Source of the DNA: Bacteroidota bacterium
GTDB taxonomy: Bacteria; Bacteroidota; Bacteroidia; UKL13-3
Assembly: GCA_947456185.1 (NCBI GenBank)
Contig: CANGPW010000007.1
Coordinates: forward strand, 1-57,250
DNA length: 57,250 nucleotides
Direction of reading: 5' to 3'
Shown here: one piece after another, positions 8,835-49,113 of the stretch
Layout: the number at the start of each line of letters is the position of its first letter
How positions within the stretch are numbered: position 1 is the stretch's first letter
The notes under the pieces: model-generated
The model's database searches: none
What the model was told of the DNA's origin: nothing
What the model saw: only the letters and a program-made list of their open reading frames with translations
Program-made: the position numbers and the translations under genes

Positions 8835-11018
8835 ATGAATTTTTCACAATTTACACGAATAATAGGAAGTAAACTAAAATGGCTAATTTTATTCCCATCA
8901 TTAGTTGCAGTTTTAGTATATTTTCTAACTTCAAAACTACCCAAAGAATTTGTTTCGGGTGCTAGTGTATATACAGGTATAGCATCGAGAGTTAATTCGT
9001 CAAATTCAGATGATAAAGCTCAAAATAATTTTGACTACAATGCAGTAAATAACACATTTGATAATTTAATGGTAACAATACATTCTCGTCAAACAACTGA
9101 GGAAGTTGCAGTGAAATTATTAGCCAAACATATAATGTTGAAAGAACCAGAACTTTCAACTTTAAGACAAGAAGGTTTTGATTTATTAGCTGTTCAAATT
9201 CCACTGGATGAACGCAATGGTTTAATAGGAAAAGATGAAGCAGAAACAATTGAAAAAGTGAGAAAAGAGCTACACTCAAGTGGAGATAACATTATTGCAC
9301 AAATTTTAAATAGCACTAACGGTTTTTATAGTATTGAAACAATTAACTCAAATTTAACAGTTAAGAGAAAACAAGCATCAGATTTTATTGATATTACATA
9401 TAAATCAAGTGATCCTGGTGTAGCAGTTTGGACTGTTAGATTGCTTTCAGAAACATTTATTTCTAAGTTTATATACTTAAAAGGTTCCGAAACAGTAAAT
9501 GTAGTAAAATGGTTTGAAACTCGTTTGCAAGAAGCATCAACGGATTTAAATAATTCGGAAGATAAATTAAAAGACTTTGGTGTAAAAAATAAAATTATTA
9601 ATTACGATGAACAAACTAAGTTTTTAGCAGAAGAAAAGGAATTAAATGAAACAAATTATTTTAAAGAACTTTCTAATAACGAAGCCAGTAAAAGAGCTGT
9701 TGCTAGGTTAGAAGATAAATTAGAAAACAGAGATATTTTACTTAAAAATAACGAAGAATTAAATAAATTACGTAAAAAATTAGGTGATGCCAATGAGCAA
9801 TTTGAGCGTGCTAAAATTTATGGAAATCCAATTTCAAGCATTGATATACTTTCAAATAAAGTGAATGCATTGAAAAAAGAAATTCAACTTTATGTTTTAC
9901 AATATTATAGTTTGAACCATAGTATTGAATCTGTTCCTCAAGAAAATATTTTAAATAAATGGTTAAACGAAACTTTAATTGTTGATGAATCTGAAGCACG
10001 TTTAAAAGTACATATTGATAGAAGAAAAGAATTTGATCGTCAGTATATTGAATTCTCTCCTTTAGGAATGCAAATGAGTAAGTTAGAGCGTGAAATAGAT
10101 GTTGCTGAAAAACAATATTTAGAAATTTTACATGGATTGCATTTAGCCAAATTGCGTCAGCAAAATATTGAAATGAGTAATAACTTACAAATTACTGATG
10201 AACCATCATTCCCCACTAAACCAATACAAAGTCGTAGGTTGCCTATTATAATTGTTTCATTTTTAGCTTCATTCATTTTATTATTAGTTTATTTTATTGC
10301 AAGTAATTTATTAGATTTAACAATTAAAAATAGTGAAAGAGCTGAAGAACTTACAGGTTTGAAATTATTTAGTGCTTTACCAATTGCAAATAATGATGAC
10401 TTAGCTAATGCAAAATTAGAAAATACATTGTTAGATTTTGCTGTCACTAATTTAAAAATTGAACTAGAAAATAGCAATGAATCAATTTCAAATTATTTAA
10501 TAACTGTGCTAAGTAATAGAGAACAAGAAGGAAAAACTTATGCTGCAAACAAACTTGCTGAAAAACTTTATAGTTTAGATTATTCAGTGTTGTTTTTAAC
10601 AAACGATGAAAGAGTAGATGATATAGAAACAGAAGATAGAAGATTCAGGGCCATCAGATATGATGTAACTAGCAAATTGTTTAGCGCTCGAAGCGAACAA
10701 AATCTATTACCAGAGTTTTCAAGAGTGAATAAAGAAGCTTATAACTTTATTATTTTAGAAGTTCCGGCAATCAGTGTAAATGCCATTCCTAATCAACTTA
10801 TAAAAAATTCTAAACTATCATTATTAATACTTGATAGTCGTAGATCATGGGCTACTTCTGATAATTACATGTTGAATTTATTTCAAAAAGCTACCAATAA
10901 CTCAAATAAAATAATGGTTTGGTTGAATTATGTTACACCTAAAAATTTAACTGGTTTAGTAGGTGAGTCCCATCATAAAAGTTTTGGTAATAGAAGAAAT
11001 TCTTTAGTTAAAGCTTAA
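8835..11018 (+). CDS. Wzz/GumC-like polysaccharide co-polymerase with degenerate tyrosine-kinase-like domain
   Basis: A 727-residue inner-membrane protein. TM1 is about residues 15-31, a large coiled-coil periplasmic region follows (about 230-450), then the pre-TM2 motif PSFPTKPIQSRR and TM2 (about 470-492). The cytoplasmic C-terminal part aligns with BY-kinases: a Walker A-like SNREQEGKT at 560-568, a Walker A' position reading LFLTND (585-590) and a Walker B position reading NFIILEV (637-642). The Walker A' and B acids are not conserved and no tyrosine cluster ends the protein, so ATPase/kinase activity is doubtful. The family controls chain length and export of surface polysaccharides. It is followed by polymerase and glycosyltransferase genes. 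Confidence 0.88.
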   Translation: MNFSQFTRIIGSKLKWLILFPSLVAVLVYFLTSKLPKEFVSGASVYTGIASRVNSSNSDDKAQNNFDYNAVNNTFDNLMVTIHSRQTTEEVAVKLLAKHIMLKEPELSTLRQEGFDLLAVQIPLDERNGLIGKDEAETIEKVRKELHSSGDNIIAQILNSTNGFYSIETINSNLTVKRKQASDFIDITYKSSDPGVAVWTVRLLSETFISKFIYLKGSETVNVVKWFETRLQEASTDLNNSEDKLKDFGVKNKIINYDEQTKFLAEEKELNETNYFKELSNNEASKRAVARLEDKLENRDILLKNNEELNKLRKKLGDANEQFERAKIYGNPISSIDILSNKVNALKKEIQLYVLQYYSLNHSIESVPQENILNKWLNETLIVDESEARLKVHIDRRKEFDRQYIEFSPLGMQMSKLEREIDVAEKQYLEILHGLHLAKLRQQNIEMSNNLQITDEPSFPTKPIQSRRLPIIIVSFLASFILLLVYFIASNLLDLTIKNSERAEELTGLKLFSALPIANNDDLANAKLENTLLDFAVTNLKIELENSNESISNYLITVLSNREQEGKTYAANKLAEKLYSLDYSVLFLTNDERVDDIETEDRRFRAIRYDVTSKLFSARSEQNLLPEFSRVNKEAYNFIILEVPAISVNAIPNQLIKNSKLSLLILDSRRSWATSDNYMLNLFQKATNNSNKIMVWLNYVTPKNLTGLVGESHHKSFGNRRNSLVKA

Positions 11019-40598: not shown

Positions 40599-41513
40599 TT
40601 ATATGTAATGTTGAGCGCCTTCTATAATTCTAAAAATATGTAAAATAGCAGGAAACAATGCATCCATCGATTCCTGTGCGCCTTTGGTAGAACCAGGTAA
40701 AGTAATAATTAATGTATTTCCTTTCATACCCGCAATTCCTCTAGATAACATGGAATATGGAGTTCTGTTTTGTCCATAGTTTCTGGCAGCTTCCATAATA
40801 CCTGGAACTTCTCTATCAATTAAAGGTTTAATGGCTTCTGGAGTATTATCTCTTGGTGAAAGTCCTGTTCCGCCAGTAAGAATTATTAAGTCATTTTTGG
40901 CTTCATATAAACTTAATACCTTTTCTTGAATTGCTAAAAAATCATCAGGAATAATGCAATAATCTGAAATGGAAACTTTGCTTTTTTCTAATTTACTAAT
41001 GATTGCTTTTCCTGCTTTATCAGTTTTTTTTCCAGCCGAAATACTATCAGAACAAACAATGACAGCGGCTTTTAAATCTGTTCTAAATTGTTCAACAAAA
41101 TCTGATTTTCCACCTTTTTTCTCCAATAATTTAATGGCATGAATTTCTATTCCTTTGTCAATTGGTTTGAGCATATCATATATAGTTAACGCTATAACCG
41201 ATGCACCATGCATGGCTTCTACCTCTACTCCAGTTTTGTAAATGGTGTGAACTTCTATTTCTATATTTATCTCTAAACCATTTATATGATAACGAACAGC
41301 AGTGAATTCAACTGGCATGGGGTGACAATCTGGGATCAGATCGCTGGTGCGTTTTACCGCAAATAATCCAGCAGTTTTTGCCATTTCAAATACATCCCCT
41401 TTAGGAACATTTTTGTTTACCAAAGCATCTATTGTTTCTTCCTTGCTCACTTTTACTATTGCTGTTGCAATGGCTTTTCTGAGTGTATTTGATTTAAAAG
41501 TTATGTCTATCAT
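40599..41513 (-). CDS. Bifunctional MoaC-MogA fusion (molybdenum cofactor synthesis)
   Basis: A 304-residue fusion. Residues 1 to about 145 are MoaC ([15 protein letters not shown] and [20 protein letters not shown], with the Asp and Lys of the active site kept), which makes cyclic pyranopterin monophosphate with MoaA. Residues about 146-304 are MogA/MoaB ([29 protein letters not shown]), which adenylylates molybdopterin. Such fusions are known in Bacteroidota. It is the last gene of the moa unit and starts nine bases after moaE ends. Confidence 0.93.
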
Positions 41514-41522
41514 TTAATATCT

Positions 41523-41966
41523 TTAATTATTAATTTTCCAAGTATGAGTTTCATCTTCAAAAATTTCTTTTCCCCAAATGGGCGTCATAGCTTTAATTTG
41601 TTCTACTATATCATGGCAAGCATCAAAGGCATTTTTTCTGTGCTTGGCAGAAACAAAAACAAACAAACAAATTTCACCAGTTTTTACCAATCCCAAACTA
41701 TGATAAATATGCATGCATACAATATCATATTTTACAAATATTGCTTCACGTATTTCATGAAATAAGTTTTCCGCCATTTCTTCATATGCCGAATATTCAA
41801 TTGCTGCTACTGTTTTATGATCAATCATATCATTGCGCACCTGACCTAAAAAAATATCATGCGCACCAATAGTTGTTTTTCCGCTGTGCTTTGCAATGCT
41901 ATCGGCTATGAATGTTGGTGTGATGGCACCTTGTATAAATACTTTATGTTTTTTTTTCTCCGTCAT
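41523..41966 (-). CDS. moaE: Molybdopterin synthase catalytic subunit MoaE
   Basis: A 147-residue large subunit of molybdopterin synthase, which with MoaD thiocarboxylate inserts two sulfurs into the pterin. GAHDIFLGQVRND is the start of the core; the active-site lysines are in QIKAMTPIWGKEIFED. The start codon overlaps the end of the moeB/thiF gene by four bases (ATGA), suggesting coupling. Confidence 0.93.
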   Translation of the reverse strand: MTEKKKHKVFIQGAITPTFIADSIAKHSGKTTIGAHDIFLGQVRNDMIDHKTVAAIEYSAYEEMAENLFHEIREAIFVKYDIVCMHIYHSLGLVKTGEICLFVFVSAKHRKNAFDACHDIVEQIKAMTPIWGKEIFEDETHTWKINN

Positions 41967-43096
41967 TTCAATGAAGTTTTATTGTTAAATTGTTGCCAAG
42001 CATTAATTCCACCTGATAAACTATAAGCTAATAATTGCGGATATTTTTCGTTGAATAGTTTTACTGCTTTTAAACTTCTATTCCCCGATTTACAAAAGAA
42101 AATAATTTTATTATCAGTTGGAATGCTTGCTAATAAATTTGGCAAATCATTCAAAGGAATTGAAATAAAATCAAATTCATTTACCAAAGGTAATTCATTC
42201 CTTTCACGCACATCAATAATGGTAATTTTTTCTTTAATTCTTAACTCCTCAAACTCAATGATTGAAATTACTGAAACATTAGCTTTTAAACTACAAAACC
42301 ATTCATAATTAAAGTTTAAAAACTCCATTTCATTTTGTGGAAATTTTTCTATTGGATTCAAAACTGGCGTTATTTCAAAATCATAAAATAAATTTTGCAA
42401 AGCATTATAGGAAATGATTTTATTACATAAGGTCTTGCCAACTCCAGTAATTATTTTAATAGCTTCAGTAGCTTGCATGGTTCCAATAATTCCTGGCAAA
42501 ACGCCAATAACACCGGCTTCATTACACGATAGTGCGTTTAAAGGATTAGGAGGTTCTGGAAATAAATCACGGTAATTTGTCTTTATTTGAGTTTCATTAT
42601 CCATCAAATTAAACACACCAACTTGTCCTTCAAAACGCAATACCGAACCATAAACTAAAGGCTTGTTTAATATTACACAAGCGTCATTAATTAAGTAACG
42701 AGTAGCAAAATTATCTGTGCCATCAATTACCAAATCGTAGTTAGCTAATAACTCAATAGCATTCTTGTTTGTAAGCTGAAAATTATAAACTCGAATTTGT
42801 ATTTCTGGATTTATTTGCGCTAGTTTTATGGCTGCTGTTGCTGCTTTTTGTTTACCAATGTCATTTTCGGAAAACAATATTTGTCGGTGCAAATTAGTAA
42901 TTGTTACCACGTCAAAATCAATGATACCAATGGTGCCAACACCTGCCGCAGTCAAATATAGGAGCGCAGGACAGCCCAAGCCACCAGCACCAATTACCAA
43001 TACTTTTGCATTCAGTAATTTTTGTTGTGACGTTTCACCAAATTCTTTTAATATAATTTGACGATGGTATCTATCATTATTTTGAGTAAAACTCAT
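41963..43096 (-). CDS. MoeB/ThiF-type MoaD-activating enzyme with C-terminal rhodanese domain
   Basis: A 377-residue E1-like adenylyltransferase. The nucleotide loop is VLVIGAGGLGCPALLYL, followed by DGTDNFATRYLIN and CNEAGVIGVLPG. A rhodanese domain from about residue 285 ends with the CKSGNRS active loop, so it probably adenylylates MoaD and also supplies sulfur. The zinc-binding CxxC of E. coli MoeB is replaced by NYRDLFP, as I recall being common in Bacteroidota. It lies between moaD and moaE. Confidence 0.9.
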   Translation of the reverse strand: MSFTQNNDRYHRQIILKEFGETSQQKLLNAKVLVIGAGGLGCPALLYLTAAGVGTIGIIDFDVVTITNLHRQILFSENDIGKQKAATAAIKLAQINPEIQIRVYNFQLTNKNAIELLANYDLVIDGTDNFATRYLINDACVILNKPLVYGSVLRFEGQVGVFNLMDNETQIKTNYRDLFPEPPNPLNALSCNEAGVIGVLPGIIGTMQATEAIKIITGVGKTLCNKIISYNALQNLFYDFEITPVLNPIEKFPQNEMEFLNFNYEWFCSLKANVSVISIIEFEELRIKEKITIIDVRERNELPLVNEFDFISIPLNDLPNLLASIPTDNKIIFFCKSGNRSLKAVKLFNEKYPQLLAYSLSGGINAWQQFNNKTSLK

Positions 43097-43133
43097 TTAT
43101 TTATCAGCTAATTTTTTCGATATTTTTATATTA

Positions 43134-43367
43134 TTATCCTCCCGAAAATGGCGGTAACAAAGCAACAATATCTTTATGATTCAATGGGGTGTTTTCATGA
43201 ATAATTTTTTTGTTTACGGCTATTGTAAATTTCATTTCTTCCAATATCGGATATAATTCAAACAATATTTTATTTAATTCATTGGTATTATTTATCGCTA
43301 ATAATGCTAATTCTGATGCATTTATTATTTCAGAAAGTTGTCCAAATACCAATATTTTTATTTTCAT
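43134..43367 (-). CDS. moaD: Molybdopterin synthase sulfur-carrier subunit MoaD
   Basis: A 77-residue ubiquitin-like protein ending in the essential Gly-Gly (LLPPFSGG), which is adenylylated by the MoeB-type enzyme and converted to a thiocarboxylate. VFGQLSEI and the HKDIVALLPP turn are typical. It precedes the moeB/thiF gene by 37 bases and follows the TauE-like gene. Confidence 0.93.
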   Translation of the reverse strand: MKIKILVFGQLSEIINASELALLAINNTNELNKILFELYPILEEMKFTIAVNKKIIHENTPLNHKDIVALLPPFSGG

Positions 43368-43398
43368 GTTTACCCTTGTGTTTGTTCAAAAAATTACA

Positions 43399-44133
43399 TT
43401 AAGTAAGGACTAGTTTTACAGCTGCAATAATAAGCACAACTGCTAAAATTTTATTTAAAAAGCTACTTTTCATTTTCTTTGCTCCAAAATAGGAACCTGC
43501 TAATCCACCAATTAAGGCAAGCAATAACATCAATATCATTTCACTTTTAAATTCAAAACCTTTTGAAAACAATCCAGCTAAACCAGCCAATGAATTTACA
43601 AAAATAAACAATGCAGAAATAGCCGCTGTTTGTTTCATATTTCCCCAGTGTAAAAGCAATATGATTGGACTTAAAATAATTCCACCACCAATGCCAATCA
43701 TTCCTGAAAATAAACCAATGGCAGCACCTATTAAAAGTGCTAAGTATATATTTTGCTTTGCAATAAAATCCTTTGTTTTAAATTTTACACCTAAAAGTTT
43801 TACCACCGAAAAAAGTAAAAGTACAGCTAATATTTTTTTATATAAACCAGCATCTACCGTTAAAAATCCACCAATAAATGCTGCAGGAATGGATGCCAAT
43901 GCAAATGGCCAAAATAAATTCCATTTAAAAAAACCGCTTTTGTAATACTGTATAAATGCAATGAGCGATACAAAAATATTTAACAATAAAGCTGTTGGTC
44001 GCATGATTTCGGGTGCAAATGAAAAATAGGCCATTAATGCCAAGTAGCCGCTCGCACCACCATGTCCTACTGATGAATATAGGAATGCAACTAAAACTAA
44101 CAACACATAAAATAGAAGGATTGAAGCTGTCAT
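43399..44133 (-). CDS. TauE/SafE family membrane transporter
   Basis: A 244-residue inner-membrane protein with about seven to eight hydrophobic helices. The repeated motifs SVGHGGASGYLALMAYF near residue 25 and GIGGGIILSPIILL in the middle are those of TauE/SafE anion exporters (sulfite, sulfoacetate or similar). Its place between moeA and moaD, eight bases after moeA, suggests it is co-transcribed with the cofactor genes. Whether it exports a sulfur anion or has another role in cofactor metabolism is inference only. Confidence 0.88.
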   Translation of the reverse strand: MTASILLFYVLLVLVAFLYSSVGHGGASGYLALMAYFSFAPEIMRPTALLLNIFVSLIAFIQYYKSGFFKWNLFWPFALASIPAAFIGGFLTVDAGLYKKILAVLLLFSVVKLLGVKFKTKDFIAKQNIYLALLIGAAIGLFSGMIGIGGGIILSPIILLLHWGNMKQTAAISALFIFVNSLAGLAGLFSKGFEFKSEMILMLLLALIGGLAGSYFGAKKMKSSFLNKILAVVLIIAAVKLVLT

Positions 44134-44141
44134 TTTCTTAA

Positions 44142-45320
44142 TTAATTCAACAAATAAACTTCTACTAAATCACCTTTATTGAACTCAGTTTTATCTTCAT
44201 CAAGTTGAACAATACAGTTAGCAAAAGCAAATGAACTCATTAAAAACGATTCTTGTGCTTGAAGAATGGTAACCTTGTTTTCTTCTATTTTTCCTTTCAG
44301 AAAAAATGTTAATCCAGCTTTTTTTGAATATGAATTAGCAAGCGTTAAATTTATTTTATTTTCAATTTTCAAACCCATCATTTTTTTTATAACGGGAGAA
44401 ATATATAAGTAAAAACAACTTAATAAAGCAGATGGATTTCCAGGCAAACCAAAAATTAATGTATTATTTATTTTGCCAAAATAAAGAGGCTTACCAGGCT
44501 TTTGTTTTACTTTATGAAATATCTTTTCAACCCCGCAGTTTTCCAATACTTTACTTACAAAGTCGTAATCGCCAACTGAAACGCCACCTGAAAGAATAAT
44601 CATATCAAAATTGGGTATATTATTTTTTATCACTTGTGTTAATTCAACTTCATTATCTTTAACACTTATTACTTTTTTTGGATTGATATAATATTCACTT
44701 AAGGCAGCATGTAAACTATAGGAATTACATTCAAAAACTTTTCCTGGTTCTAATGTATTTCCTGGATTATTTAATTCATTTCCAGTTGTAATTACACAAA
44801 TATTAGGTTTCCTAAAAACTTTTATTTGATCAAATCCTAAGCCTGCTAAATAGCCAATTACACCTGGAGTAATTTTAGTTTTTGCCTCTAATACAAGGTC
44901 GCCTATTTTAGTTTGAAAACCTGCAGTTCTGATGTTTGCTCCAATGTTAATTTGGTCATCATTGATATATAATTGATTGTTTACAACAGTTACTTTTTCT
45001 TGCATTATAATGGTATTGCAACCCATGGGAACTGGTGCTCCAGTAAAAATACGAACAGCTGAATTTGGTAAAAGTGGTTTTGTTGGAAAAACTCCCGCGG
45101 GAATTTCGTCAGTTATAGTAAGTGATTTGTTCTCGTCTAAATCCTTTAATCTAAAACCATATCCATCCATAGCCGACTGATCAAAAGGAGGGAAGTTAAT
45201 AGTTGAAAACATGTTTTCAGCGCTTACCAATCCTGTAGCTTCGTATAAAGGAACAGTAATAGTTTCAATTATATTTGAATTTGCTGTTATTAGTTTTTGT
45301 GCTTCTGAAACTGAAATCAT
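44142..45320 (-). CDS. moeA: Molybdopterin molybdenumtransferase MoeA
   Basis: A 392-residue enzyme that inserts molybdate into adenylylated molybdopterin. It has FDQSAMDGYGF, the MPT-binding ILSGGVSVGDYDF, KQKPGKPLYFG and GLPGNPSALL. The order and length match MoeA domains I-IV. It lies after moaA across a 158-base gap that contains a dispersed repeat, so a promoter of its own is possible. Confidence 0.94.
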   Translation of the reverse strand: MISVSEAQKLITANSNIIETITVPLYEATGLVSAENMFSTINFPPFDQSAMDGYGFRLKDLDENKSLTITDEIPAGVFPTKPLLPNSAVRIFTGAPVPMGCNTIIMQEKVTVVNNQLYINDDQINIGANIRTAGFQTKIGDLVLEAKTKITPGVIGYLAGLGFDQIKVFRKPNICVITTGNELNNPGNTLEPGKVFECNSYSLHAALSEYYINPKKVISVKDNEVELTQVIKNNIPNFDMIILSGGVSVGDYDFVSKVLENCGVEKIFHKVKQKPGKPLYFGKINNTLIFGLPGNPSALLSCFYLYISPVIKKMMGLKIENKINLTLANSYSKKAGLTFFLKGKIEENKVTILQAQESFLMSSFAFANCIVQLDEDKTEFNKGDLVEVYLLN

Positions 45321-45322
45321 GA

Positions 45323-45417
45323 TTTTTTGCCACAGATTGCATATTTTTTCATTGATACTTTCATATGGCTTATGAAATAATTTTTTGGCAATATAATAAT
45401 TTTTTTTGCCACAGATT
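45323..45417. repeat. Duplicated 16-mer TTTTTTGCCACAGATT between moeA and moaA
   Basis: Identical copies at 45323-45338 and 45402-45417, 79 bases apart. The second runs on into a GAATT...AATTCTGTG inverted repeat near 45421-45441 and then the TAG-containing words at the moaA stop. Confidence 0.75.
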
Positions 45418-45478
45418 CTAAAGAATTATTTGAATTCTGTGTAATATAGTCTAACAACCTACAACTATGGTCTATCAA

Positions 45479-46462
45479 CTATCCACCAAGCCCAATCATA
45501 CTAATTTCGCGGGTTTCGGTGTTTTCTTTTCCCCAATTAATATTTTCATTGTTACCACCAAGCATTTCTTTTTTACTGTTAACACTTTGATAAATTAATG
45601 GTTCAATGTCTTTTCCTGTTCTAAAAGCACCTAAAATATCAGTTTCATGTTTGCCAAAAAGGCAATTATACATTTTGCCCTCGGCTGTTAATCGCATTCT
45701 GTTACAACCGCTGCAAAAAGGTTCACTCATGGTACTAATAACTGCAAATGTTCCTTTGTAATTTGGAATAAAATATTTTTTTGCAGTATCATTTTTCTCA
45801 TTGATTAATTTGATGAAATTGTGTTTTGATGAAATTACATCCAAAATTTGTTCATGAGTAAATACTTTGTCTTTGCTCCATTCATTGCCCGAAAAAGGCA
45901 TAAACTCTATAAAACGAATGTGTAAAGGTTTTTCTTTGGTCCATTCTATGAAGTTTAATATTTCATGATCATTAAAGTTTTTGATGGCTACTACATTAAT
46001 TTTTACATGAAAATTGTTTATTAAAAGTAGTTCAATATTTTGCATTACTTTATCAAATTCATCTCGTTTCGTAATGGATAAATATTGCTCTTTTATAAGT
46101 GTATCCAAACTAACGTTTACTGAATTGATGCCAGCTTTTTTAAATGTTTCTATAAAATCATTTACAAAAACGCCATTGGTAGTAATGGTTAATTTGATTT
46201 GATATTTTGATAATTTTTCAATAATTTCTTTGGCGTCTTTTCTTACCAATGGTTCTCCACCTGTTAAACGAATTTTATTTACGCCATTTTTAATAAAAAC
46301 TGCCGCAATGCTATCAATTTCAGCTGCCGACATGTATTTTGAATTGGCAGATTTTCCTATTGGTAAATATTCTGCTGTGCAATATTCACAACGCAAATTA
46401 CATTTATCGGTAAGTGAAATTCTTAAATAATCATGGTTTCGATTGAATTGGTCTATGATCAT
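45479..46462 (-). CDS. moaA: GTP 3',8-cyclase MoaA
   Basis: A 327-residue radical SAM enzyme that starts molybdenum cofactor synthesis by rearranging GTP. The N-terminal cluster cysteines are C21, C25 and C28 (CNLRCEYC), TGGEP is at 67-71, and the second cluster is C250, C253 and C267 ([19 protein letters not shown]). It ends in Gly-Gly, as required for activity. Its start overlaps tatA by four bases (ATGA). The TAG stop is the first triplet of TAGTTGATAG repeat words. Confidence 0.96.
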
Positions 46463-46920: not shown

Positions 46921-47637
46921 CTACTCCTTCTTTTCATCAAAAAATTCCACCTCACCGTTTGAAATATCGTAAAAAGCACCTATAATTTTTATTTCTTTTT
47001 CTTCCACCATCAATCTTAATGTAGCACTGTTTTTAAGAATTTGTTCTATGGTTAAGCTTACATTTTTACGCGAAACAATGTCTTCCACTTCATCCTCTAG
47101 TGGATACGTTTTTTGAGGATTAATTGCTGGTTTTATTTTATTAGTTAATTGTGTTAAATGCTCCAATCCTGCATTGTCAATTGCACCTTTAACTGCGCCA
47201 CAATGACTATGACCTAATACTACAAAAAGTTTGGTATGTTTAACTTTAGCAGCAAATTCCATGCTCCCCAATACATCGTCATCTTCAATATTTCCTGCCA
47301 ATCTGCTTACAAAAATATTTCCAATTCCTTGGTCAAAAATTATTTCTGGTGGAACCCTTGAATCTATACAAGTTAATATAAATGAATGAGGATGTTGGCC
47401 TCCCTTAGTTGCTTCTATTTGTTCTTTGTAATTGGTGTTTATAAAAGCATTATCTAAAAATCGGTTGTTACCATATTTCAATTCTGTGAGTGCTTCATCT
47501 ATATTTTTTACTTTATGTATTTCTTTTTGTTTGGTATTTTTACCTGAATTATTTTTATCAGTCGACTTATTATTATTGCAAGAAACGATGGTTAAAATAC
47601 TTGCTATAACTACTAATTTATTTTTATTTAATTTCAT
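46921..47637 (-). CDS. Beta-carbonic anhydrase, predicted lipoprotein
   Basis: A 238-residue zinc enzyme interconverting CO2 and bicarbonate. Zinc ligands are in TCIDSRVPPE (Cys, with the Asp-Arg dyad) and LGHSHCGAVKGA (His and Cys). The N-terminus is a lipoprotein leader (ILTIVSC, then Asn/Lys-rich linker), so this beta-class enzyme should sit in the periplasm or outer membrane rather than the cytosol. It begins 27 bases after the NirK-cytochrome c gene stops, so the two are probably co-transcribed. Why they go together is not evident. Confidence 0.92.
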   Translation of the reverse strand: MKLNKNKLVVIASILTIVSCNNNKSTDKNNSGKNTKQKEIHKVKNIDEALTELKYGNNRFLDNAFINTNYKEQIEATKGGQHPHSFILTCIDSRVPPEIIFDQGIGNIFVSRLAGNIEDDDVLGSMEFAAKVKHTKLFVVLGHSHCGAVKGAIDNAGLEHLTQLTNKIKPAINPQKTYPLEDEVEDIVSRKNVSLTIEQILKNSATLRLMVEEKEIKIIGAFYDISNGEVEFFDEKKE

Positions 47638-47664
47638 AAGTTTATTGTTACTTTTAAATGTTTT

Positions 47665-49113
47665 TTATTTCATATTTCTAATTTTGGTAACCATTTGAGG
47701 GGAAATATCTTTTTTACTATTGCCCCAATTATTGTATACAAAAGTTAATACATTGGCTATTTCTACATCATTTAATACCTGAGCTGTCATCACACTATTG
47801 TATTTTTTACCATTTACTCTAATCTCGCCCGAATGGCCTTTTAAAATAAATCTAATTGCCCTGTTAGCATCCGCATTTAAATAATCGGAATTAGCCAAAG
47901 GAGGAAAAGCATTTGGTAATCCAAGGCCTGTTATTTGGTGGCATGCAAAACAATTGTTGTTGTAAATGGATTGGCCCTCAGCAATTCTTTCTTTTAAAGT
48001 TATTGGTTTTGGTGCTTTTGTTTCATAAGTATTGATAGGCATTTCTTGAATTGTTCCTCCTTCTGGATGATATACTATATCATATTTTTCTCCTGAAAAA
48101 ATATTTTTATTGGCTTCACCCGAAACTTTTAGCATGGCTAAACTCCCTTTGTTAAAAGTTCTGAAAATGGAATTGTCTACTAGGATAAATGTGCCTGGAA
48201 CTTCTACTTTAAAATCTACAATGGTAGAACCACCAGCGGGTATTAAAGTAGTTTGTACATTATGGTTTATTAGCGAACCTCCTTCTATATTTACATTGTC
48301 AAATATTTCGCCAATCACGTGAAATGATGATACCAAATTTGGTCCACCATTTCCCACAAATAACCTTACCGTTTCACCAACATTTGCAGTAATCGCATTA
48401 TCGCCAGTTAAAGATCCTACTTTGCCATTAAAGACCACGTAATCGGGTTCTTCTTTAATAGCTTTTGCCATATCAAATTGTTGTAAACCTTTAGCTCCAT
48501 TAGCACCTTTGGTATAAAAATCGCCTTGCATGATGTAATACTCCTTATCAACTGGAGTTAGGCCACCTTCAGGTTCTACCAATATTAAACCATACATGCC
48601 GTTAGCAATATGCATACCCACTGGTGCAGTGGCGCAATGGTAAACAAACAAACCTTGGTTAAGCACTTTAAATGAAAAAACTACCTCATGGCCAGGAGCT
48701 ACAAACGATGATGCCGCTCCGCCTCCCGGACCTGTTACAGCATTTAAATCAATATTATGTGGAAGTTTGTTTTCTGGGTTATTTTTTAAGTGAAATTCTA
48801 TTTCATCACCTACTCTTGTTCTAATAAAACTACCTGGAACACTGCCGCCAAAAGTCCAATAAATGTATCTAACTCCATCAGCCAATTCACCTTCTTTTTC
48901 TATAATTTCCATGCTTACCACCAGTTTCATAGCAGCTCTGTTTCCAATGGGAATAGGTACAAATGGAGGAGTGGTTAACTCAGCAATTGCAGTTTCCGTT
49001 GTCTTTATTTTCGCAGTATTTTTGTTATTACAATTGGTAAATAGGGTGATTATTAAGCAAAAAGCAAGTGCCATTTTTTGCTTTGAATGGTCATTGTTTT
49101 TATATTTCGTCAT
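47665..49113 (-). CDS. NirK-type copper protein fused to cytochrome c, type 2 copper ligands missing
   Basis: A 482-residue lipoprotein (FTNC, Cys28) with two cupredoxin domains as in AniA/NirK (about residues 65-335) and a C-terminal cytochrome c (CFACH, 388-392; probable axial Met442). Type 1 copper ligands are intact: H119, C160, H168, M173. Of the type 2 (catalytic) ligands, H159 remains, but the expected His in HNIDLHAVTG is Asn124 and the expected His in LVDHSIF is Asn314. The active-site Asp122 and His265 are kept. Nitrite reduction to NO needs the type 2 copper, so the enzyme may be inactive or repurposed. A Tat/molybdenum-cofactor cluster lies downstream. Family assignment is secure; function is not. 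Confidence 0.9.
   Translation of the reverse strand: MTKYKNNDHSKQKMALAFCLIITLFTNCNNKNTAKIKTTETAIAELTTPPFVPIPIGNRAAMKLVVSMEIIEKEGELADGVRYIYWTFGGSVPGSFIRTRVGDEIEFHLKNNPENKLPHNIDLNAVTGPGGGAASSFVAPGHEVVFSFKVLNQGLFVYHCATAPVGMHIANGMYGLILVEPEGGLTPVDKEYYIMQGDFYTKGANGAKGLQQFDMAKAIKEEPDYVVFNGKVGSLTGDNAITANVGETVRLFVGNGGPNLVSSFHVIGEIFDNVNIEGGSLINHNVQTTLIPAGGSTIVDFKVEVPGTFILVDNSIFRTFNKGSLAMLKVSGEANKNIFSGEKYDIVYHPEGGTIQEMPINTYETKAPKPITLKERIAEGQSIYNNNCFACHQITGLGLPNAFPPLANSDYLNADANRAIRFILKGHSGEIRVNGKKYNSVMTAQVLNDVEIANVLTFVYNNWGNSKKDISPQMVTKIRNMK

Follow-up and report, generated by a model that had tools for sequence, protein, structure and literature searches.

A haem-c-tethered nirK gene with asparagine at two type 2 copper positions

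The window, by which we mean the whole 57,250-nucleotide stretch of DNA analysed here, carries an open reading frame with an N-terminal hydrophobic stretch that runs to Cys28, a two-domain cupredoxin core, and a C-terminal cytochrome c domain (Table 1). Its product scored 337.9 bits against TIGR02376 (copper nitrite reductase), over the family cut-off of 296.3 bits, and has the three-domain layout of a haem-c-tethered enzyme, with a CXXCH motif (CFACH) at residues 388-392 and an axial Met442. Judged by its sequence, this nirK ORF is a haem-c-tethered copper nitrite reductase (CuNiR). Cys28 resembles a lipobox cysteine and is conserved in all four members of the clade described below; 101 of the 105 His-bearing relatives share it, while two have Phe and two a gap.

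To place the metal ligands, we aligned the protein with solved structures. The closest was 2zoo (E 3.8e-183); 3ziy matched as well, and both are haem-CuNiRs. In each alignment, residues 124 and 314 fall at type 2 copper (T2) histidine positions (motifs hnidlh and lvdhsif in the two structures). The type 1 copper (T1) ligands H119, C160, H168, and M173 are intact in all four clade members, as are the catalytic pair D122 and H265 and the gate Tyr348 in the linker. In place of three histidines, the T2 triad of all four members reads N124, H159, and N314. These alignments bear out a sequence-only reading of the window, which had given the frame and coordinates of the ORF, placed Asn124 and Asn314 at T2 histidine positions, and proposed that the T1 site, Asp122, and His265 are kept; His159 proved to be intact too.

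Table 1. Coordinates of nirK, its key codons, and neighbouring genes in the window
Feature	Position	Strand	Remarks
nirK-cytochrome c fusion ORF	47665..49113	minus	482 aa; Asn at two of three T2 ligand positions
Codon 124, AAT (Asn), first T2 His position	48742..48744	minus	His in 104/104 relatives
Codon 314, AAT (Asn), T2 His position contributed by the neighbouring subunit in known CuNiRs	48172..48174	minus	His in 105/105 relatives
Codon 159, CAT, T2 His kept, adjoins type 1 Cys160	48637..48639	minus	
Codon 122, GAT, catalytic Asp kept	48748..48750	minus	
Codon 265, CAC, catalytic His kept	48319..48321	minus	
Codon 348, TAT, linker gate tyrosine kept (Tyr323 of RpNiR)	48070..48072	minus	Tyr in 98/99 relatives and 4/4 clade members
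C-terminal cytochrome c domain	47731..47985	minus	CFACH at 47938-47952; Met442 at 47788-47790; Cytochrom_C match
Beta-carbonic anhydrase, lipoprotein-like N-terminus (by eye)	46921..47637	minus	Pro_CA 130.6 bits; 27 bases downstream of nirK
Molybdopterin biosynthesis genes after nirK	40599..46462	minus	moaA, moeA-like, TauE-type permease, moeB-like, moaE-like, fused moaC-moaB

A beta-carbonic anhydrase gene adjoins nirK in all four clade members; the 77 loci from His-bearing relatives, each 4.4-17.9 kb long, contain none. The order in the clade, as far as each contig reaches, is nirK, beta-carbonic anhydrase, and then molybdopterin genes; among the latter, moaA scored over its cut-off, moeA was assigned by domain model only, and moeB and moaE were named from reading the ORFs. 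Upstream of nirK, genomes G002 and G005 carry a mobA-like gene, fdhD, a DUF3050 gene, and an acetolactate-decarboxylase-like gene. DUF3050 is where the G001 contig starts, and G001 and G005, unlike G002, have an intervening SDR-type gene (fdhD, DUF3050, and the decarboxylase were named by profile or domain match, the mobA-like and SDR-type genes by reading). In the window, pyrG lies upstream of nirK instead. The molybdopterin genes probably serve an NAD-type formate dehydrogenase (TIGR01591, 803.1 versus 666.25 bits), the only PF00384 match in the window's genome; a nitrate reductase was rejected as the reason for these genes on the same result.

Divergence across this segment is uneven. Between G000 and G001 (window 46921-49113 against L033 and L032), dS was 0.0 for the carbonic anhydrase, 0.14 for the NirK domain, 0.62 for the cytochrome domain, and 0.21 for moaA. 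Such mosaic divergence suggests that parts of the nirK-carbonic anhydrase segment were exchanged between species.

Both asparagines are fixed in four genomes of one genus

We searched ten genomes of the window's genus and found the gene in four of them, with 100, 96, 96, and 93% identity to that of the window and no internal stop. All four carriers, a small and mostly uncultured group, have AAT at both codons 124 and 314. Outside this group, every relative (loci with E <=1e-60) has a histidine at each position that it covers (104 of 104 at position 124 and 105 of 105 at position 314); these 105 relatives were drawn from two collections and no two proteins are identical, with near-duplicates of one species possible. 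A clade sharing both asparagines, the pattern that the sequence-only reading had pointed to as informative, thus exists. In a quick tree of 106 proteins (L009, L127, and L134 left out for an in-frame stop or as fragments), the four carriers formed one group (SH-aLRT 100, no bootstrap) on a stem of 0.53 changes per column, and the nearest group was a Flavobacterium group with weak support (84).

Wider searches returned the same genus. Of 80 loci kept from 285 stretches, three had Asn/Asn, all in the window's genus. A sample of the class gave a NirK match in 29 of its 395 genomes, and Asn/Asn occurred only in G000 and G001, with G259 seen in part. The DNA pattern for HNIDxNxxTG was found in the window's genome only, among 395 sampled genomes of the phylum, most of which may be without nirK. 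No relative was found in viral contigs. Nor did we find a His/Asn intermediate among the relatives examined, which leaves the earlier proposal of two independent losses without support. The proposal that both changes were CAT to AAT holds for site 124, where the nearest six relatives all have CAT, but is unsure for site 314, where two have CAT and four have CAC.

Could the asparagines be a sequencing or assembly artefact, or the product of a reassigned codon? The window comes from a draft genome of 127 contigs, and three of the four carriers are titled MAG. Against this, the codons are identical in four assemblies. AAT in nirK also encodes asparagine at positions that are 94-100% conserved as Asn in relatives, so the genetic code is normal here. 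We consider both possibilities ruled out, their joint probability being negligible. The completeness of the four carriers is 88-99%, and absences in them are relative for that reason. With this in mind, a second, canonical NirK was not found in the window's genome (94% complete), which has one full match and one cytochrome-domain-only match.

The two substitutions stand out in an otherwise conserved gene

To find out what else has changed, we took the 149 positions at least 97% conserved in the 105 relatives. Positions with less than 80% coverage were left out of this count, as were L032-L034, whose contigs are the same as those of L003-L005. Only positions 124 and 314 differ in any clade member. 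The chance that two random hits, at equal odds over the conserved positions, would both fall on the three T2 ligands is ~2.7e-4. In a leave-one-out count, 35 of the 105 relatives break at least one conserved position and 20 break at least two; hence two broken positions are an ordinary count, and which two they are is what matters.

With conservation relaxed to 85%, 8 of 216 NirK-domain positions differ in all four carriers, H112N among them. This third fixed His-to-Asn change (48778-48780, AAC in the window) lies seven residues before the T1 ligand His119 and outside known metal sites; of 104 relatives, 94 have His and four have Asn at site 112.

Substitution rates indicate strong constraint. 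The NirK-domain dN/dS (NG86) within the clade is 0.036-0.10, with dS up to 0.6; over the whole gene, the clade values are 0.06-0.13. The nearest His-bearing group (L035-L038) gave NirK-domain values of 0.028-0.041, and six other groups gave 0.005-0.028 (one pair not computable). Constraint on the clade gene is therefore strong, if a little relaxed relative to His-bearing groups, and this speaks against a fully unchanged role. Codons 122, 124, 159, 265, 314, and 348 are all unchanged in the clade; a rough neutral estimate, with the tree length added up by hand, gives a P of ~2e-5 for this, though constraint from structure could also account for it. At the other end of the protein, the cytochrome domain of the clade has drifted a little more than usual: across 11 pairs with relatives whose NirK domains are 82-86% identical, its mean identity is 66.5%, whereas 1545 pairs of His-bearing relatives in that band average 72.4% (s.d. 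4.9).

These data agree with the earlier view of an undamaged gene in an otherwise intact frame, since there is no internal stop in any of the four carriers and purifying selection acts with no visible decay. A pseudogene is ruled out by the absence of internal stops and the low dN/dS. An early stage of decay, in which catalysis was lost recently and the gene is now being lost, is a further alternative. It would account for a dN/dS somewhat above that of the nearest His-bearing group, and one genome of the genus lacks nirK at the syntenic locus. In this genome, G008 (L203, contig C273), fdhD, DUF3050, moaA, and moeA follow in succession, with no nirK, carbonic anhydrase, SDR, or acetolactate decarboxylase gene between DUF3050 and moaA. 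By moaA, G008 is close to the carriers: its dS to G000, G001, and G002 is 0.22-0.27, while that of G005 to the same three is 0.41-0.46. DUF3050 agrees with moaA on this placement, and fdhD does not separate them. Loss is the simpler reading of the absence in G008, and we take nirK to be dispensable because so close a genome is without it at the same locus. We nevertheless regard early decay as very unlikely, given four uninterrupted frames, 147 of 149 conserved positions intact, and two asparagines that stayed fixed over dS of up to 0.6.

Nitrogen-oxide pathway genes in the genus

A Sec-dependent NosZ (clade II type) scored over its cut-off in all four carriers and in none of the six non-carriers, one of which (G008) is 65% complete; the link may reflect one lineage rather than independent events. 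The other genes of the pathway fared differently. First, no close NorB was found in the ten genus genomes, in which the only matches (in four of ten) are 23% identical. Second, NirS had no match over the cut-off in these genomes (weak matches in three), and NrfA had no match in any of the ten; both were rejected as the real nitrite reductase on these grounds. Taken with the formate dehydrogenase as sole PF00384 enzyme of the window's genome, these results mean that the usual NirK partners were not found. Third, norB (at least 45% identity) lies near nirK in none of three clade loci, compared to 22 of 77 loci of His-bearing relatives, so the clade loci do not form a denitrification unit; with only 22 of 77 linked, nirK-norB linkage is not universal in any case.

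The window's genome does encode a divergent NorC/NorB-like pair on another contig (C27; L166:8957-9370 and 9367-10704). This NorB-like family is present in 77 of 395 class genomes (E <=1e-25). We aligned 32 rows, the query and 31 loci, of which four rows come from the window's genus and two of those are the same protein. The position of the FeB ligand His207 is Asn in 22 rows, including that of the window's genome, Tyr in nine, and Ser in one; all 32 rows have Val for the following Glu and Met for one haem His. With an FeB histidine and the Glu replaced, the protein is not to be taken for a normal NO reductase. The family is commoner where there is a NirK match (16 of 29 versus 61 of 366 genomes; Fisher p 9e-6, overlap counted by eye). 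The asparagine at its metal position recalls the putative NO dismutases, as far as these are described in the accessible part of PMC3413370.

These observations bear on a third-ranked explanation, that the protein is a working nitrite reductase in which copper is bound as His1Asn2 plus waters and NO is made, perhaps slowly. The window's genome yielded no candidate for an NO-forming nitrite reductase other than the clade protein, which passes TIGR02376, and both NosZ and the NorC/NorB-like pair are present. We judge this explanation decidedly unlikely, however: two of the three ligands are gone where 104 of 104 and 105 of 105 other relatives have histidine, a close NorB is missing, and the NorB-like protein is itself without one FeB His and the Glu. 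The 267 NirK sequences of PMC4770552 likewise keep the T2 histidines, although that set was screened for them.

A selected variant with a probable loss of the catalytic copper

An asparagine side chain is shorter than that of histidine and would not extend to the copper position that the histidine rings hold. As encoded, the His3 copper site cannot form, and with a single T2 histidine left, a canonical catalytic copper is unlikely. This points to one of two broad readings: retirement of the enzyme into a different redox role, or function with an unusual metal site. The sequence-only reading had suggested that the catalytic copper was given up and the protein repurposed, perhaps as an electron carrier. 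Our data agree with its first part as far as a canonical copper site is concerned; a plain carrier role fits less well, with the pocket kept in all four members.

The most likely reading, which we hold tentatively and at somewhat less than even confidence, is a T1 copper/haem c redox role without canonical nitrite chemistry. The protein would be a selected variant of a haem-c-tethered CuNiR in which the His3 T2 copper site became His1Asn2. Because asparagine is too short, the normal catalytic copper would be lost or very weakly bound, and canonical nitrite-to-NO catalysis lost or much reduced, while electrons could still pass from haem c to the type 1 copper. We envisage a periplasmic, probably lipid-anchored protein with a redox role in a respiratory chain that may also feed the NosZ of the same genomes; the presence of NosZ in four of four carriers and none of six non-carriers counts for this redox-chain reading. 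The former pocket would still be formed, in line with what is reported for RpNiR depleted of T2 copper (PMC6038957), and may still bind nitrite, NO, or another ligand. Asp122, His159, His265, Tyr348, and the counterparts of Ile245, Gln262, and Phe295 of RpNiR are fixed in the clade, which argues against simple retirement and against a pure carrier; a mere carrier should not need these residues and should have freed some of them.

The same residues are the main fact behind the second-ranked explanation, a re-tooled active site whose pocket still does chemistry on nitrite, NO, or another small ligand. Its metal could be held by His159, Asp122, and His265 (a 2-His-1-carboxylate arrangement) and/or by the Asn carboxamides, with the gate Tyr and the haem exerting control. 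All four members retain the known proton-relay, bridge, and gate residues, and it is asparagine, not scattered residues, that is fixed at both sites (P ~0.03, roughly, for two neutral codons to stay unchanged). Asn in place of a metal His has been described for putative NO dismutases, for which a different reaction was proposed (accessible part of PMC3413370). Set against this are three points. In known CuNiRs, a water bridge joins the catalytic Asp and His to the copper, according to the accessible sections of PMC6038957, and thus the metal would have to move. The available model is poor (AlphaFold2 monomer, mean pLDDT 64.2), and the T2 site lies between subunits. In addition, the open-access literature, as far as its text was accessible, yielded no precedent. 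On balance we consider a re-tooled site somewhat unlikely. A fuller version, in which the pocket is rebuilt around His159/Asp122/His265 and the two asparagines, has the linker Tyr as its gate and haem c and T1 copper as its supply of electrons, and is devoted to a non-nitrite reaction with the carbonic anhydrase as partner in the same compartment, appears unlikely.

nirK is a marker gene for denitrification. Organisms of a conserved clade that passes the family cut-off without a catalytic copper site would be wrongly scored as reducing nitrite, which touches on the marker use of nirK with which PMC4770552 is concerned. With two ligands replaced and all other highly conserved positions as they were, the clade also amounts to an experiment by nature that separates the catalytic parts of a CuNiR from those for electron transfer, gating, or folding. 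A different metal in the pocket, if there is one, would make this a novel active site in a fold that has been studied at length. We found no earlier report of a natural T2 His-to-Asn NirK variant in the accessible text of the open-access literature, which is weak evidence of absence.

Comparison with known systems

Among solved enzymes, the AniA-type NirK (1kbv) resembles the clade protein in core sequence (E 1.1e-127 over residues 45-348). Unlike the clade protein, its solved chain has no cytochrome domain, and it presumably has histidine at the T2 sites. PMC2924362, consulted for natural AniA defects, contains nothing on a T2 His-to-Asn change. Similarity extends further in PhNiR of Pseudoalteromonas haloplanktis (2zoo), where the cupredoxin core and the C-terminal cytochrome c align over query residues 41-479. 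The T1 ligands, the catalytic Asp and His, and the gate Tyr (Tyr313 of PhNiR, in the accessible sections of PMC6038957) are shared, whereas PhNiR has His where the clade protein has Asn124 and Asn314.

The putative nitric oxide dismutases offer a parallel for the substitution itself: according to the accessible part of PMC3413370, these N-oxide enzymes consistently carry Asn in place of a metal-binding His and are conserved otherwise. Their fold is unrelated (haem-copper family), and the likeness is an analogy only.

RpNiR of Ralstonia pickettii (3ziy and others) was compared residue by residue in the pocket. The two proteins have the three-domain layout in common, and numbering was matched by counting along the pairwise alignment. 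Asp97/D122, His240/H265, Ile245/I270, Gln262/Q287, Phe295/F320, and Tyr323/Y348 (RpNiR/clade protein) are identical, kept in all four clade members, and have roles in the pocket according to the accessible text of PMC13324648 and PMC6038957. They differ in two respects: RpNiR has all three T2 histidines, and its gate-loop Leu319 corresponds to Tyr344, which is fixed in the clade and found in 3 of 99 His-bearing relatives. When RpNiR is depleted of T2 copper, the pocket is still formed and the gate Tyr is closed, as reported in the accessible sections of PMC6038957.
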